Shown here piece after piece: positions 20,958-26,395 of a DNA stretch of 64,000 nt. The translations under genes were made by a program, and so were the position numbers. The notes below the pieces were generated by a model, which worked only from the letters and a program-made list of their open reading frames with translations, did not search any database and was not told the DNA's origin. Position 1 is the first letter of the stretch. Every line of letters starts with the position of its first letter. The DNA comes from Nitrosomonas sp. Nm51 (lineage in GTDB: Bacteria; Pseudomonadota; Gammaproteobacteria; Burkholderiales; Nitrosomonadaceae), in NCBI RefSeq assembly GCF_900111165.1, contig NZ_FOGH01000013.1, forward strand, positions 1 to 64,000, in the 5' to 3' direction.

Positions 20958-22190
20958 ATGCTTAATAATTCATGGCATCACATTTCAGCGGCACCGCATC
21001 GTAGCCTGTTTCTGGCTGGCGCGCTGCAGGGTATTTTTACACTGACCTGGTGGATGTACGATCTAGCCGGGCGATATGCCATTCTTGGTACATATTCAGT
21101 CTGGAGTATTGCACCAACCTGGGCACATGCATTTTTGATGATTTATTGTTTTTTTCCGTTTTTTATCTTCGGCTTTCTGTTTACTACTTATCCAAACTGG
21201 TTAAATGGAAAAAAAATCACCAAACACGTCTATATGACAACCTGCCTGCTAATGGTCACCGGCGTTGCTTTATTTTACACCGGACTGATTCACGGACAGT
21301 GGATTAGTGTATTGGGGGTCATTGCTTTGTTGGGAGGATTCATTAATGCTTTTAGAGCGTTACAACTTGTTCTGGTTAAAGCTAAAGAACAGGACAGACG
21401 TCATGCCATTGCTACCAGCACAGCTTTATTGATGGGATGTTTGGGAATTGCGGCATTTTTATTATGGTTGTTGACTGAAATACGGTTTCTACTGGATTTC
21501 TCACGCTATGCCGGTATCTGGTTTTTCCTGATGCCGATATTGCTGACCGTTTCACACCGCATGATACCCTTTTTTTCCAGCCGGGTACTGGATAATTATA
21601 TAATCGTAAGGCCTTACTGGATACTGTGGATCATGCTGGCGTGTACAGTCTTGCATGGCTTGTTGCAACTGACGCATTTAATCCAGTATCTATGGCTGGC
21701 AGATTTTCTCCTGGCGTTATGCGCCCTGTATTTATCTATCCGTTGGGGACTGCTGCGCAGTTTTCAAGTCAGCCTGCTCGCAGTACTGCATATTGCTTTT
21801 GCCTGGCTCAGCGTCTCAATGCTGCTATTTGGACTGCAGAGCCTTGTATTCATGCAGAGCGAAACAAATACTTGGCTTCTGGGCATGGCGCCATTGCATG
21901 CCCTGGCAATCGGTTATTTCGCCAGTATGGTACTGGGCATGGCATCACGTGTCACAATCGGACACTCCGGCCGCCCGTTAGTGCTGGATCGTTTTACATG
22001 GCAACTGTTTATTGGCTTTCAAGCAACCGCTGTGGTCAGAATGCTGCCTGAACTGATTCCTGCAATAGGTCAGTTAGCACCAATACTGTATTTGTTCGCT
22101 GGACTGATCTGGCTGGCATGTTTCACTTTATGGGCCGTTCGCTACATACCGGTTTATTGGCGTTCCCGTATCGACGGCAAACCCGGCTAA
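20958..22190 (+). CDS. nnrS: NnrS family membrane protein
   Basis: This is a 410-residue polytopic protein with about twelve hydrophobic segments and the family features GALQGIFTLTWW, HAFLMIYCFFPFFIFGFLFT, SHRMIPFF, MAPLHALAIGYFASM and SRVTIGHSGRPL, with histidines suited to haem/copper binding. NnrS is associated with nitric oxide stress and denitrification genes and helps relieve nitrosative stress in Vibrio cholerae. This suits an organism producing NO from nitrite. It stands alone between the divergent PHP gene and the rubrerythrin operon. A hairpin lies 48 bases after its stop. Confidence 0.9.
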   Translation: MLNNSWHHISAAPHRSLFLAGALQGIFTLTWWMYDLAGRYAILGTYSVWSIAPTWAHAFLMIYCFFPFFIFGFLFTTYPNWLNGKKITKHVYMTTCLLMVTGVALFYTGLIHGQWISVLGVIALLGGFINAFRALQLVLVKAKEQDRRHAIATSTALLMGCLGIAAFLLWLLTEIRFLLDFSRYAGIWFFLMPILLTVSHRMIPFFSSRVLDNYIIVRPYWILWIMLACTVLHGLLQLTHLIQYLWLADFLLALCALYLSIRWGLLRSFQVSLLAVLHIAFAWLSVSMLLFGLQSLVFMQSETNTWLLGMAPLHALAIGYFASMVLGMASRVTIGHSGRPLVLDRFTWQLFIGFQATAVVRMLPELIPAIGQLAPILYLFAGLIWLACFTLWAVRYIPVYWRSRIDGKPG

Positions 22191-22407: not shown

Positions 22408-22827
22408 ATGGAACTTAAAGGATCCAAAACCGAAAGTAATCTGAAAGCTGCTTTTGCAGGCGAATCTCAGGCAAATCGCCGATATCTATACTTTGCAGCC
22501 AAAGCTGATGTTGAAGGCCAAAATGATGTTGCCGCAGTCTTCCGTTCAACCGCAGAAGGTGAAACCGGACATGCGCATGGTCATCTGGAATATCTGGAGT
22601 CATGCGGCGATCCAGCCACCGGTCTGGTTTTCGGCGCAACCCGCGATAATCTGAAAACGGCAATCGCCGGTGAAACACACGAATACACCGATATGTATCC
22701 GGGTATGGCAAAAACCGCGCGCGATGAAGGCTTTGATGAAATCGCGGATTGGTTTGAAACGCTGGCTAAAGCCGAACGCTCACACGCCAACCGTTTTCAG
22801 CGGGCACTCGACAGTCTGACAGATTAG
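22408..22827 (+). CDS. Rubrerythrin (diiron domain only)
   Basis: This is a 139-residue four-helix diiron protein. Ligand candidates are E19, E52-x-x-H55, E89, E92 and E123-x-x-H126, so the full rubrerythrin set is present. The C-terminal rubredoxin domain (two CxxC pairs) of classical rubrerythrin is absent, so electrons must come from another protein. It probably reduces hydrogen peroxide in the cytoplasm. AAAGGAGAT lies just before the ATG. It is followed by a GlpC-like Fe-S protein and DUF3501, a repeated partnership that suggests these supply or use its electrons. Confidence 0.93.
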
Positions 22828-22880
22828 TCCATAAACAGTTAATCATTGCAGTCAGCACAGCGTGTCTTGTAAAACAACGG

Positions 22881-22919
22881 CGGATGGAATTTTTTACCAC
22901 TGGTGGAAAGTTTCATCCG
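22881..22919 (+). other. Stem-loop between rubrerythrin and the Fe-S protein gene
   Basis: CGGATGGAA pairs with TTTCATCCG (one G:T pair), enclosing a smaller CCACTGGTGG palindrome. It lies 54 bases after the rubrerythrin stop and 54 bases before the next start. It could attenuate read-through or protect the rubrerythrin mRNA, which would make rubrerythrin more abundant than the downstream enzymes. Confidence 0.4.
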
Positions 22920-22972
22920 TTTGGTAAAGTCAATCACATTTTTTCTCATCTTTTTTCATCTTTTTTCTCTCT

Positions 22973-24364
22973 ATGGCAATTCGTGAAGGCAGCTTGGAAG
23001 CACCCACACGTCATCCGATAGACTGGAAAAAAATTGACTTTTACAATGAAGCCAGTCTCCAGAATGAAATGGAGCGCATCTTCGATATCTGTCATGGTTG
23101 CCGGCGTTGTGTCAATCTGTGCACTGCATTCCCGCGCTTGTTTGATTTGATTGATGAAGGTACCACCGGCGAGCTGGATGGTGTAGATAAAAACAGATTT
23201 CGGGAAGTTGTCGATCGCTGTTTTTTATGCGACATGTGTTTTATGACAAAGTGTCCCTACGTACCGCCGCACGAGTGGAATGTCGACTTCCCACATTTGA
23301 TGCTGCGCGCCAAAGCCGTTCAATTCAAGACCGAAGGCGCCGGTTTTCGCGACAAACTGTTATCGAATACCGATCAGGTCGGCAAGCTCGCAACGACACC
23401 TGGTATTGCGCAAAGCGTTAACGCACTGAACAGAGCTCCTGTCGCGCGCAAAATTTTGGACAGTACGCTTAACATACATGCCGAACGCAAACTGCCCGAA
23501 TACACCACCAGCAAATTCCGTTCAAATGCCAAGACCATTGACCATTATCCCGTCAAAAACGGCGAGCACACACCCGGCAAAGTGGCCATCTACGCTACCT
23601 GTTACATAAATTATAACGAACCCGGTATTGGCCATGATTTACTGAAAATACTTGAGTATAATGAAATACCCACGACACTTGCTGCAAAAGAAGCATGCTG
23701 CGGAATGCCAAAGCTGGAGCTCGGCGATCTTGAAACGGTTGAAACACTCAAAAACGAGAATATCACGCAATTACTAAAACTGGCTCAGGAGGGCTATGCA
23801 ATTCTGTCTGCAATACCATCCTGCACGCTGATGTATAAACAGGAATTGCCGTTGTTATTTCCCGATGACGAAGCGGTTCAGGCTGTCGCCGCCGCCATGT
23901 TTGACCCGTTCGAATATTTTATGCTAAGAAACCAGGACGGGTTGCTGAAAACTGACTTTAAAATGCCGCTGGGAAAAGTGTCTTACCATATCCCCTGTCA
24001 TCAGCGCGTACAAAATATCGGCAGAAAAACGCGCGATGTCTTACAATTGATACCCGGCACTGAAATCAGTATTGTTGAGCGTTGTTCCGGCCACGATGGC
24101 ACATGGGGCGTCAAAAGCGAACATTTTGACGACTCGATGAAAATCGGCCGTCCTGTTTTCCGTCAAATGGCCGCCAGCCGGCCCGATTACATCAGTTCGG
24201 ATTGCCCAATTGCCGCCCGGCACATCGAGCAGGGTATGGGCGCGGACAATACCGCAAAAAAAATACACCCGATTTCTTTGCTGCGCATGGCTTACGAAGG
24301 CCTATCTGACGACAGCCAGCAACTCGATTTATCCAACAAATCAGCAAACGAAAAAACCGGTTAA
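22973..24364 (+). CDS. GlpC/HdrD-like iron-sulfur protein (CCG-domain oxidoreductase)
   Basis: This is a 463-residue protein. Two ferredoxin-type 4Fe-4S motifs are seen: C40-x2-C43-x2-C46-x3-C50 and C83-x2-C86-x2-C89-x4-C94-P. Two cysteine-rich CCG-like domains follow: ATCYINYN with ACCGMP, and PCHQR with RCSGHDG, where the expected CCG reads CSG. The layout matches glycerol-3-phosphate dehydrogenase subunit C and heterodisulfide reductase D. No dehydrogenase or HdrABC partner is nearby. Its place between rubrerythrin and DUF3501 suggests electron transfer to rubrerythrin. DUF3501 starts 6 bases after its stop. Confidence 0.88.
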   Translation: MAIREGSLEAPTRHPIDWKKIDFYNEASLQNEMERIFDICHGCRRCVNLCTAFPRLFDLIDEGTTGELDGVDKNRFREVVDRCFLCDMCFMTKCPYVPPHEWNVDFPHLMLRAKAVQFKTEGAGFRDKLLSNTDQVGKLATTPGIAQSVNALNRAPVARKILDSTLNIHAERKLPEYTTSKFRSNAKTIDHYPVKNGEHTPGKVAIYATCYINYNEPGIGHDLLKILEYNEIPTTLAAKEACCGMPKLELGDLETVETLKNENITQLLKLAQEGYAILSAIPSCTLMYKQELPLLFPDDEAVQAVAAAMFDPFEYFMLRNQDGLLKTDFKMPLGKVSYHIPCHQRVQNIGRKTRDVLQLIPGTEISIVERCSGHDGTWGVKSEHFDDSMKIGRPVFRQMAASRPDYISSDCPIAARHIEQGMGADNTAKKIHPISLLRMAYEGLSDDSQQLDLSNKSANEKTG

Positions 24365-24369
24365 GGGAA

Positions 24370-24963
24370 ATGAGCACAATTACACGTGACAGTTTATTAA
24401 CACTGGAAGATTACGCCAAGGTTCGCAAACAAAAACGCGACGAAGTCATGACGCATAAAAAAGCACGTAAAATTCCGCTCGGCGACCATGTTATTCTGTT
24501 ATTTGAAGACGACTTAACGATCCGTTATCAAATCCAGGAAATGCTCCATATCGAACGTATCTTTCAAGAAGATGAAATCACGCACGAACTGGAAACTTAC
24601 CTGCCGCTGGTGCCGGACGGTACCAATTGGAAAGCCACCATGATGATTGAATATCCCGACCCGTCCGTGCGCGCCGACAGGCTTGCGAAAATGGTCGGAA
24701 TTGAAGACAGCGTCTGGGTAAAAATAGATGATCTTCCGCCTGTCTACGCGATTGCAGACGAAGATCTTGATCGCGAAAATACCGAAAAAACCTCTGCCGT
24801 ACATTTTCTCAGATTTGAATTGTCGAAAGACATGATCCGCGCACTGCGTCAGCATGGCAACTTGTCCATGGGCGTTGATCACCCAGCGTACCGGGTTGTG
24901 ATTGAATCTATTGATGAACAAAGTCGCGCTTCGCTGATTAACGATCTTATCGACATTCAGTGA
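24370..24963 (+). CDS. DUF3501 family protein
   Basis: This is a 197-residue soluble protein of DUF3501, with recognisable YAKVRKQKRDEVMTHKKARK, LLFEDDLTIRYQIQEMLHIE and ELSKDMIRAL blocks. No reaction is known. It starts 6 bases after the Fe-S protein and its TGA overlaps the GTG start of the CNP1-like gene, so it is firmly inside the rubrerythrin operon. No metal-binding cysteine cluster is seen, so a structural or regulatory role beside the Fe-S protein is more likely than electron transfer. Confidence 0.87.
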   Translation: MSTITRDSLLTLEDYAKVRKQKRDEVMTHKKARKIPLGDHVILLFEDDLTIRYQIQEMLHIERIFQEDEITHELETYLPLVPDGTNWKATMMIEYPDPSVRADRLAKMVGIEDSVWVKIDDLPPVYAIADEDLDRENTEKTSAVHFLRFELSKDMIRALRQHGNLSMGVDHPAYRVVIESIDEQSRASLINDLIDIQ

Positions 24964-25490
24964 ACAATCTTACACGAACGACATGGATTACCTCAGCAAT
25001 TGTTTTATCACTGCTGATATCATGCGCTGCCAAAAAAGAGTTCAAGGATGAATTTGACGTGGGAAAAACCTGGGTGGAACAGCTTGCCCAACTTCCAGAT
25101 TTTCCCGATTTACAAAATCTGATTGAATTTGACGCCGGCTCGATCACCGATTACAGTCATGCCGTAGACCCTGACTCCATCAGCATCGGCCAAGACGGCG
25201 TAATCCGTTTTACACTGGTCACGCGCTCCTCAACCGGCGCCATGAATATCAGCTATGAAGGTATCCGCTGTATCACTAATGAGAGAAAGCTGTATGCCAT
25301 TGGTCGCGACGACCGCACCTGGTCAGAACCCAGAGTATCAGACTGGCAACCGCTTGATTTTGTCCGGCAATTTTATGCACAGCGTGAATTGTCAAAGAAT
25401 CTGTTCTGCCCGCACAAACAAACTGTCAGCAGTCGAGAAGAAGCAATCAGCGTGCTGAAAAGAGGCTCGCATCCGGATATTTTTCGTTAG
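24960..25490 (+). CDS. CNP1-like family lipoprotein
   Basis: This is a 176-residue protein starting at GTG, which overlaps the DUF3501 stop in a GTGA arrangement. The N-terminus is hydrophobic and ends in LLISCAAKKEFKDEF, a probable lipobox with cysteine near residue 22. The rest matches the CNP1-like family first noticed in Neisseria (FPDLQNLIEFDAG, SYEGIRCITNERKLYAIG). Function is unknown; it is probably anchored in the periplasm. CNP1-like genes often stand alone, so its coupling to the rubrerythrin operon is notable. Confidence 0.8.
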   Translation: MNNLTRTTWITSAIVLSLLISCAAKKEFKDEFDVGKTWVEQLAQLPDFPDLQNLIEFDAGSITDYSHAVDPDSISIGQDGVIRFTLVTRSSTGAMNISYEGIRCITNERKLYAIGRDDRTWSEPRVSDWQPLDFVRQFYAQRELSKNLFCPHKQTVSSREEAISVLKRGSHPDIFR

Positions 25491-25601: not shown

Positions 25602-25916
25602 TTATCTGTTTTTTTGTTTTCCGAACAAGCTGCTCAGCATTTTTTTAAGTTTGTCGATAGCACCGCGCACGGCGGAATCAAGGCTTGCATCCTGATGTGT
25701 CACCACAACGGGCTGCCGGTTTTCGATGCGCGCTTCTATTAAGCAACGCTTATCATTTTCACCACCTTTGTCACTGTTTTCATCGCTGATGTGCACTTCA
25801 ATCCGAGTGACCTGCTCACTGAATCGACCTAATGATTGCTCAACCATTGCGCTAACATGGCTTGACAATGTTTCATGCCCATCGATATTATGATCGGTAT
25901 TAATTTGAATTTGCAT
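25602..25916 (-). CDS. hpf: Ribosome hibernation promoting factor / S30EA-like protein (short form)
   Basis: This is a 104-residue member of the HPF/RaiA family. It has the basic and acidic beta-alpha-beta pattern (SRVTRIEVHISDEN-like, CLIEARIENRQPVVVTHQDASL, AVRGAIDKLKKMLSSLFG) and lacks the long-form C-terminal dimerisation domain. Such proteins bind the 30S decoding region and silence ribosomes under stress. It follows the host-attachment family gene by 32 bases, and both sit downstream of a palindromic operator shared with the rubrerythrin operon. Confidence 0.85.
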   Translation of the reverse strand: MQIQINTDHNIDGHETLSSHVSAMVEQSLGRFSEQVTRIEVHISDENSDKGGENDKRCLIEARIENRQPVVVTHQDASLDSAVRGAIDKLKKMLSSLFGKQKNR

Positions 25917-25948: not shown

Positions 25949-26395
25949 TTAAAGCCGCTCAGGCAGCCGAGAGCGCAATTCATCGGTTTTCAGTGCAGTG
26001 TAGTCCTTATCAATTTCCAGAGACAGCAATGAACTGAGAGCCGGACTGAGATTGGTTCGTAATAGCCCGAGAAATGCGGGTGCAGCCACAATGACAACCC
26101 GGTCAAACTTATTTTTTAAGCGCCCCTGTTCCACCCGATCTACAAGCAGTTTTGCAAAACGGATCTGTTCATGCTCATGCGGATTGACTTCAACTTCCAT
26201 TGCATGGCGCCCCTCACCATAACTGTCAAAACTGCGACCAGCGCGATCAGAAGACAGATCGCTCTTTTTTGCCCGAGCATCAGGGTTGTCGAAGGTTTCA
26301 ATTTCAGTTAAAGGTCCAATGGGTGTATCCGCTGAAAAAAGTTTGGCGTTGCCGCTATTTGCGGAAAGAATCCATATTTTTGACATGTTTGACAC
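25949..26395 (-). CDS. Host-attachment family protein (PF10116-like)
   Basis: This is a 148-residue soluble protein with the family pattern WILSANSGNAKLFSAD near the start, SFDSYGEGRHAMEVEVNPHE in the middle, and RVVIVAAPAFLGLLR followed by EIDKDYTAL toward the end. The family name comes from Agrobacterium attachment mutants. The fold is related to eRF1/baeRF-type ribosome-associated proteins, so a translational stress role is equally plausible, especially beside hpf. It is the first gene of this operon. The palindrome at 26512-26533 lies 117 bases upstream. Confidence 0.83.
   Translation of the reverse strand: MSNMSKIWILSANSGNAKLFSADTPIGPLTEIETFDNPDARAKKSDLSSDRAGRSFDSYGEGRHAMEVEVNPHEHEQIRFAKLLVDRVEQGRLKNKFDRVVIVAAPAFLGLLRTNLSPALSSLLSLEIDKDYTALKTDELRSRLPERL

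Follow-up and report, generated by a model that had tools for sequence, protein, structure and literature searches.

An aerobic-type lineage of rubrerythrins (RBR) without a rubredoxin domain was described by Cardenas, Quatrini, and Holmes in 2016, who reported that its genes are co-localized with those for DUF3501 and for a GlpC-related protein, RFO (PMC5114695). According to that report, all three genes are present in 185 genomes, the trio is widespread among aerobic bacteria and archaea, and fused RFO-DUF3501 genes occur in Nitrosomonas; RFO was suggested to compensate for the lost rubredoxin. Elsewhere, the trio has been tied to oxidative stress by its context (PMC7852563) and predicted for the mitochondria of some eukaryotes (PMC7050145). 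Here, we analyzed a rubrerythrin locus of Nitrosomonas sp. Nm51, which lies within a stretch of 64,000 nucleotides of contig NZ_FOGH01000013.1 (the window) from an assembly of 3.24 Mb and 131 contigs. The gene set at this locus is the already described aerobic-type rubrerythrin trio, in a Nitrosomonas-like ammonia oxidizer. An earlier reading of the same DNA made without database searches (the sequence-only reading) had proposed a peroxide-reducing electron chain and regarded the function of the set as not described; the same idea had already been put forward in PMC5114695.

The window agrees with the aerobic-type cluster in its three genes, in a one-domain RBR that has no CxxC, in a DUF3501 and a CCG-domain Fe-S protein that are co-localized and co-occur with it, and in the role proposed for RFO; the genus itself is named in PMC5114695. 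It differs in that RFO and DUF3501 are separate genes, in contrast to the fused Nitrosomonas genes cited in that report, the main text of which mentions no CNP1, NnrS, lipoprotein, or hairpin and does not comment on the missing Cys residues of the second CCG domain described below. Ferriperoxin of Hydrogenobacter thermophilus and sulerythrin (1j30) are likewise one-domain rubrerythrins without a rubredoxin domain. Ferriperoxin is reported to have FNR-dependent peroxidase activity, and its disruptant was unable to grow aerobically (PMC3317640); the RFO gene of this organism sits apart from the ferriperoxin gene, unlike the arrangement in the window (PMC5114695). In the parts of the literature that our search covered, neither RFO nor DUF3501 appeared in a biochemical assay, and no measurement of the electron donor to the RBR of such a trio turned up.

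The RBR residues E19, E52, H55, E89, E92, E123, and H126, which we take to be the diiron ligands of rubrerythrins, all fall within the set that is at least 97% conserved across 101 sequences. None of these 101 sequences contains a rubredoxin-type CxxC, and the window RBR is a single ferritin-like domain; the lack of a rubredoxin domain agrees with the sequence-only reading. Its close solved relatives include 4di0 (2e-77) and sulerythrin 1j30 (4.8e-49), which PMC5114695 places in group 4. The window RBR is the sole rubrerythrin detected in its genome; the other, weak PF02915 match was rejected as a second rubrerythrin and is COQ7.

The grouping of rubrerythrin, Fe-S protein, and DUF3501 is borne out across genomes. 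In a class sample of 143 genomes (RFO cut-off E 1e-60; RBR cut-off 77% identity, with rubrerythrin matches at or below 54% excluded; genome lists compiled by hand), RBR was found in 64, DUF3501 in 63, and RFO in 62. Every genome with DUF3501 has RBR (63/63) and nearly every one has RFO (61/63). The P values for co-occurrence (2e-40 and 7e-37; 3e-4 for CNP1) are descriptive and ignore shared ancestry. The order RBR-RFO-DUF3501 on one strand is found at 57 of the 62 other class loci; at L041, L048, and L066, RBR adjoins DUF3501 with no RFO between them, and L078 and L089 are interrupted by contig ends. In genome G088, the trio is split, such that L048 has RBR beside DUF3501 and contig C73 has RFO beside a second RBR. 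A phylum sample yielded DUF3501 in 13/249 genomes, eight of them from outside the class, and all eight have the trio in order. The same order is seen in 76 of 80 loci from named relatives, which are the best 80 of 492 matches, mostly Nitrosomonadaceae, and overlap the genomes above; at the four without RBR (L157, L175, L191, and L220), DUF3501 lies less than 1.5 kb from the start of the stored stretch. The trio is not a chance grouping, since distantly related genomes show the three genes in this same order. DUF3501 keeps company with rubrerythrin and not with the glycerol metabolism that the sequence-only reading had raised as another setting; at E 1e-5, no homologs of GlpA or GlpB were found among the open reading frames (ORFs) of the window or of the searched loci, a search that did not include HdrA or other Hdr subunits. 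This result is in keeping with the earlier remark that the Fe-S protein has no dehydrogenase partner here.

The absence of the three genes is also shared. DUF3501 was found in 106 of 125 family genomes. RBR was found in none of the other 19, and 17 of these (G159 and G250 being left out) were searched for RFO, which gave a single 20-bit match and no match in the remaining 16. Such a pattern is in line with published data in which N. europaea lacks rubrerythrin, whereas N. ureae and N. multiformis express it (PMC5960693). We fetched 18 of the trio-less family sites and compared three of them pairwise; at every one of the 18, one or more ORFs in addition to CNP1 have a match in a fetched trio locus. 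Both flanks are shared in one comparison, L257 (G249) against L139 (G242), and one flank is shared in the two others. Between L257 and L139, identity is 71-94% for the genes on both sides and 64% for CNP1; the trio is missing from L257 between the common upstream gene and CNP1, and L257 has an extra ORF 3' of CNP1. Taken together, joint presence, joint absence, and conserved order support the view that RBR, RFO, and DUF3501 form one evolutionary unit.

RFO resembles E. coli GlpC of the anaerobic glycerol-3-phosphate dehydrogenase (28% identity over 419 columns) in its overall plan of a pair of ferredoxin-type motifs and a pair of CCG domains; the ferredoxin-type motifs and the four-Cys CCG domain 1 are kept in RFO. 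The Pfam Fer4 matches to RFO fall under their cut-offs. RFO differs from GlpC in scoring under the NCBIfam GlpC equivalog cut-offs (239.1 versus 278 and 182.5 versus 279.9), in having no glpA or glpB nearby, and in a CCG domain 2 that is two Cys short. Against PDB sequences, the RFO profile gave weak HdrB matches alone (E 0.044 and 0.055). All 15 Cys of the window RFO are conserved across 97 aligned RFOs, and the same 15 are kept in a set of 186 RFO rows that includes all eight from outside the class; the loci of this set overlap in species, its rows are not independent, and one row ends within the ferredoxin part. The sequence-only reading had described two 4Fe-4S motifs and two CCG-like domains. 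Both 4-Cys motifs and CCG domain 1 stand, whereas CCG domain 2 (CSG, 3 Cys) is degenerate, with two of GlpC's five Cys replaced.

The replacements in CCG domain 2 are themselves conserved. At one GlpC Cys position, RFO has Ser372 (Ser in 183/186 rows, Ala in 3/186), and at the other it has Ala414 (Ala in 182/186, Gly in 4/186). His374, an Ile in GlpC, is invariant (186/186), as is His343. GlpC and a CCG protein encoded on contig C74 of the same genome are the sole two comparators for these residues. In the C74 protein, both replaced positions are Cys, position 374 is Ala, and position 411 is Asn; the RFO pattern is thus not shared by CCG proteins at large. The rule for noncubane clusters in CCG domains is a five-Cys ligand set (PMC13083937). 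RFO departs from this pattern, with four Cys in CCG domain 1 and three in CCG domain 2. In EtfD, a Thr that replaces a Cys is reported to accompany a linear [3Fe-4S] cluster, and both clusters are shielded; EtfD has this cluster, a noncubane [4Fe-4S] cluster, and five membrane helices, as compared to the four and three CCG Cys of RFO (PMC13083937). From these residue patterns, we infer that the second CCG site of RFO would be an electron-transfer site and not a thiol-reducing one. Hdr-like thiol chemistry in this domain, which the sequence-only reading had allowed for in naming a thiol as a possible donor, is disfavored because the ligand Cys are missing and an extra invariant His is present.

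The DUF3501 protein of the window has no Cys, and 99 sequences show no conserved Cys and no CxxC, so DUF3501 is unlikely to bind an Fe-S cluster and fits an adaptor better. In 43 of the 106 family genomes (hand count), DUF3501 is part of a longer frame that encodes 661-695 aa. We fetched 40 family loci, picked from the 106 genomes to mix fused and unfused frames and thus not random, and in 14 of them RFO followed by DUF3501 forms one ORF, which holds for all 14 such frames fetched. This fusion, which many Nitrosomonas have, is the best sign of physical cooperation between the two proteins. A predicted structure of the fusion (predicted local distance difference test score, pLDDT, 90.2; predicted template modeling score, pTM, 0.70; low-confidence linker) matched 3fjv, a solved relative of DUF3501, in its DUF3501 part (Z 25.6, root-mean-square deviation (rmsd) 1.8, 190 residues). 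Its RFO part matched LutA (9a6l, an integrative model; Z 24.8, rmsd 2.0, 228 residues), EtfD (9ojn; Z 21.7, rmsd 3.9, 368 residues), and HdrB (8rvu; Z 20.1, rmsd 2.8, 236 residues), which is consistent with a common fold of the CCG part. Fold matches to an adaptin appendage (Z 6.4) and a racemase (Z about 6) were treated as common arrangements. It should be noted that in G034, a single-contig genome with RBR and RFO, DUF3501 is split over two frames (locus L065, 5983-6300 and 6356-6778), a possible pseudogene or sequencing error.

Sequence and comparative genomics establish what the three genes are, that they are present or absent together, and that relatives carry RFO and DUF3501 as a fusion. 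For the function of the trio, we favor with moderate confidence a system of three cytoplasmic proteins in which RFO relays electrons to RBR and DUF3501 docks the two. The diiron site of RBR would reduce hydrogen peroxide and might also act on organic peroxides. RFO, a soluble chain of four cluster sites (two ferredoxin-type, two CCG-type), would supply single electrons in place of the missing rubredoxin domain and may itself receive them from quinol, from a ferredoxin, or from ETF or another flavoprotein. DUF3501, with no conserved Cys, would hold RFO and RBR together. The link to peroxide proposed by the sequence-only reading is in keeping with expression data from elsewhere. In Burkholderia pseudomallei, bpss1837-1839 (annotated as hypothetical, ferredoxin, and rubrerythrin), which by order and annotation appear to be DUF3501, RFO, and RBR, are reported to rise after H2O2 by log2 values of 3.37, 3.31, and 3.36, next to katG at 3.64, and to be lower in a sigma-E mutant (-1.84, -1.79, and -1.68) (PMC4175613). 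Likewise, up-regulation after H2O2 has been described in Sulfolobus for a rubrerythrin cluster that includes a 'glpC' further downstream (PMC2739297).

Several observations weigh against this assignment. Two near-complete genomes, G064 of the class (100% complete; L041/L239) and G155 of the window's genus (99%; L127/L240, where CNP1 is also present), have RBR and DUF3501 and no RFO that we could find, and G079 (81% complete) has RBR and DUF3501 with an RFO match of 26 bits at most. Because G064 and G155 are without RFO, RFO is not obligatory and cannot be the sole possible donor; since RBR and DUF3501 occur without it, RFO would be the exchangeable part. Other exceptions in the class are G032, which has RBR alone, and G116, which has RFO alone. 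The ferriperoxin assay was run on FNR and NADPH and not on RFO (PMC3317640), and of the Sulfolobus rubrerythrin protein spots, one was reported up and two down (PMC2739297). An RFO-DUF3501 interface is not claimable from the fusion model, given its pTM of 0.70 and low-confidence linker. Finally, the 145-bp gap between rbr and the RFO gene, together with the hairpin inside it, may place rbr on its own transcript. A bolder version of the electron relay, which we offer as a tentative possibility, is that RFO serves specifically as the electron outlet to a diiron peroxidase. CCG domain 2 (C342, C371, C411, and H374) would then bind its cluster through three Cys, with or without the His, a ligand set different from those in GlpC, HdrB, and EtfD; DUF3501 would be a cofactor-free adaptor that clamps RFO to RBR, and the whole would be a rubredoxin-independent peroxide reductase with a dedicated chain in aerobes.

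The hairpin bears on the leading alternative and recurs among relatives. The counts were made on the 93 loci with an rbr-RFO gap of 50-260 bases, others being dropped, with control stretches of similar length 5' of rbr that are not intercistronic. An uninterrupted stem of at least 9 bp is present in the gap at 47/54 class loci and 34/40 family loci (the window is in both), as compared to 12/54 and 5/40 controls. Based on 60 shuffles each, z falls below -2 in 41/54 class and 34/40 family gaps and in 7/54 and 3/40 controls; the window hairpin has z = -2.6. A stem of at least 9 bp recurs in 80/93 of the relatives' gaps, where the stem is kept and the sequence differs, and a run of T follows the stem in 26/80 only. 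No Rfam family matched the hairpin at its gathering score, one sub-gathering match (E 0.099) was taken as chance, and scans for promoters and terminators gave numbers within chance. The hairpin may end or protect the rbr message and thereby yield more RBR than RFO, and because the 145-bp gap holds this 20-bp hairpin, a single operon is not certain.

Such an imbalance would suit a different division of labor, in which RFO and DUF3501 serve in the maturation or repair of RBR, reducing or loading its dimetal site only occasionally, and a general ferredoxin/FNR system supplies the electrons for catalysis. Relatives have very high levels of RBR, reportedly 1.22% of the proteome in N. ureae and 1.23% in N. 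multiformis (PMC5960693), and the hairpin after rbr could hold RFO and DUF3501 lower. The two near-complete genomes with RBR and DUF3501 and no RFO point the same way, as do the function of ferriperoxin with FNR and NADPH (PMC3317640) and a meeting abstract in which B. pseudomallei RBR bound several metals at partial occupancy (PMC12585693). However, a four-site Fe-S relay with all Cys conserved resembles an electron carrier in regular use, and the present data give no sign of metal handling. The equal H2O2 rise of bpss1837-1839 speaks against a strong split in expression between rbr and RFO and does not suggest unequal need (PMC4175613). We consider maturation or repair to be unlikely. An independent RFO-DUF3501 oxidoreductase acting on a small thiol, a persulfide, or a quinone, with RBR as the guard of its oxygen-sensitive clusters, appears improbable. 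The CCG-domain clusters of HdrB are reported to be catalytic (PMC13083937) and the RFO fold is EtfD/HdrB-like, but CCG domain 2 is without two of GlpC's five Cys, and RBR is not just a guard because RBR and DUF3501 occur without RFO. That the trio consists of merely co-regulated stress genes with no shared reaction, a view left room by the lack of biochemical proof of the chain in the literature that was searched, is highly improbable: the genes co-occur almost without exception, are missing together, are fused in some genomes, and keep their order across two classes.

The features of the locus are collected in Table 1. Five bases (24365-24369) separate the RFO gene from DUF3501, one fewer than the 6 bp of the sequence-only reading, and DUF3501 and CNP1 overlap at GTGA (24960-24963) as that reading states. 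Among the best 80 of 492 matches, the nearest named DUF3501 relatives are Nitrosomonas marina and its kin, with 84% for Nm71; this comparison may exclude records very close to the window's own genome.

Table 1. Positions of the rubrerythrin trio, its subfeatures, and its neighbors within the window.
Feature	Position	Strand	Description
rbr	22408-22827	+	139 aa; aerobic-type one-domain rubrerythrin; Pfam Rubrerythrin PF02915 2.8e-29
Hairpin between rbr and RFO gene	22879-22921	+	20-bp stem including G-U, 3-nt loop
RFO, GlpC-like Fe-S protein	22973-24364	+	463 aa; Pfam CCG PF02754 1.9e-14, 2 stretches
RFO ferredoxin-type part	23090-23254	+	two 4-Cys motifs: C40/43/46/50, C83/86/89/94
RFO CCG domain 1	23600-23824	+	four Cys C210, C242, C243, C284; Met287 at fifth-Cys position
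RFO CCG domain 2	23996-24214	+	three Cys C342, C371, C411
DUF3501	24370-24963	+	197 aa; Pfam PF12007 1.2e-72
CNP1-like probable lipoprotein	24960-25490	+	176 aa, GTG start; Pfam PF08750 2.4e-40
NnrS-family membrane protein	20958-22190	+	upstream of rbr

The CNP1-like gene was initially favored as a fourth member, and the sequence-only reading had likewise assigned it a supporting part. The protein passes the PF08750 cut-off (138 bits versus 25), its N-terminus (LLISC) was read as a lipoprotein signal, and two Cys are invariant among 43 relatives. A structure model (pLDDT 88.1) gave 3zh7 as the best Foldseek match (E 3.4e-3) and had Haemophilus protein E, of a group of surface lipoproteins, as its first fold match (6gus; Z 8.1, rmsd 3.5, 111 residues), with TdeM (9m3l, Z 8.0) as a tie; such Z scores can be chance. 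Of the 20 class genomes with both genes, 14 carry CNP1 immediately 3' of DUF3501, one carries it 2.3 kb off, and five have it elsewhere. In the fetched family loci, it is directly 3' of DUF3501 in 37/40, and apart from the window the 4-base overlap is found in 12/23 unfused and 14/14 fused loci. Yet CNP1 is present in 18 of the 19 family genomes without DUF3501 and RBR (the 19th, G159, is 80% complete), in the same place at L257, and without DUF3501 in six class genomes. Because CNP1 is present where the trio is absent, it is not counted as a member, and its presence in trio-less genomes removes it from the model. It is hard to see where a probably exported protein would fit into a chain within the cytoplasm, and in these betaproteobacteria CNP1 simply follows the trio by happenstance; its role may be helpful yet independent of the trio.

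NnrS was also rejected as a member of the set, since it is found at 1/63 class loci (the window's own included), 6/40 family loci, and 7/80 named loci. Its position directly 5' of rbr is confined to the subgroup around N. marina and N. aestuarii, where a link between nitric oxide and peroxide stress is possible. On the opposite strand 3' of CNP1 are genes for an S30AE ribosome-hibernation-type protein (25602-25916) and a PF10116/baeRF family 12 protein (25949-26395), which also adjoin CNP1 in 2/40 fetched family loci (L128 and L129).

The altered CCG domain 2 of RFO and the hairpin between rbr and the RFO gene are the points worth following at this locus. Which protein donates electrons to rubrerythrin can be tested directly with the help of the RFO ligand pattern, the genomes without RFO, and the RFO-DUF3501 fusions. 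The idea that RFO is this donor is still the best explanation of the trio, with the caution that some genomes manage without RFO.

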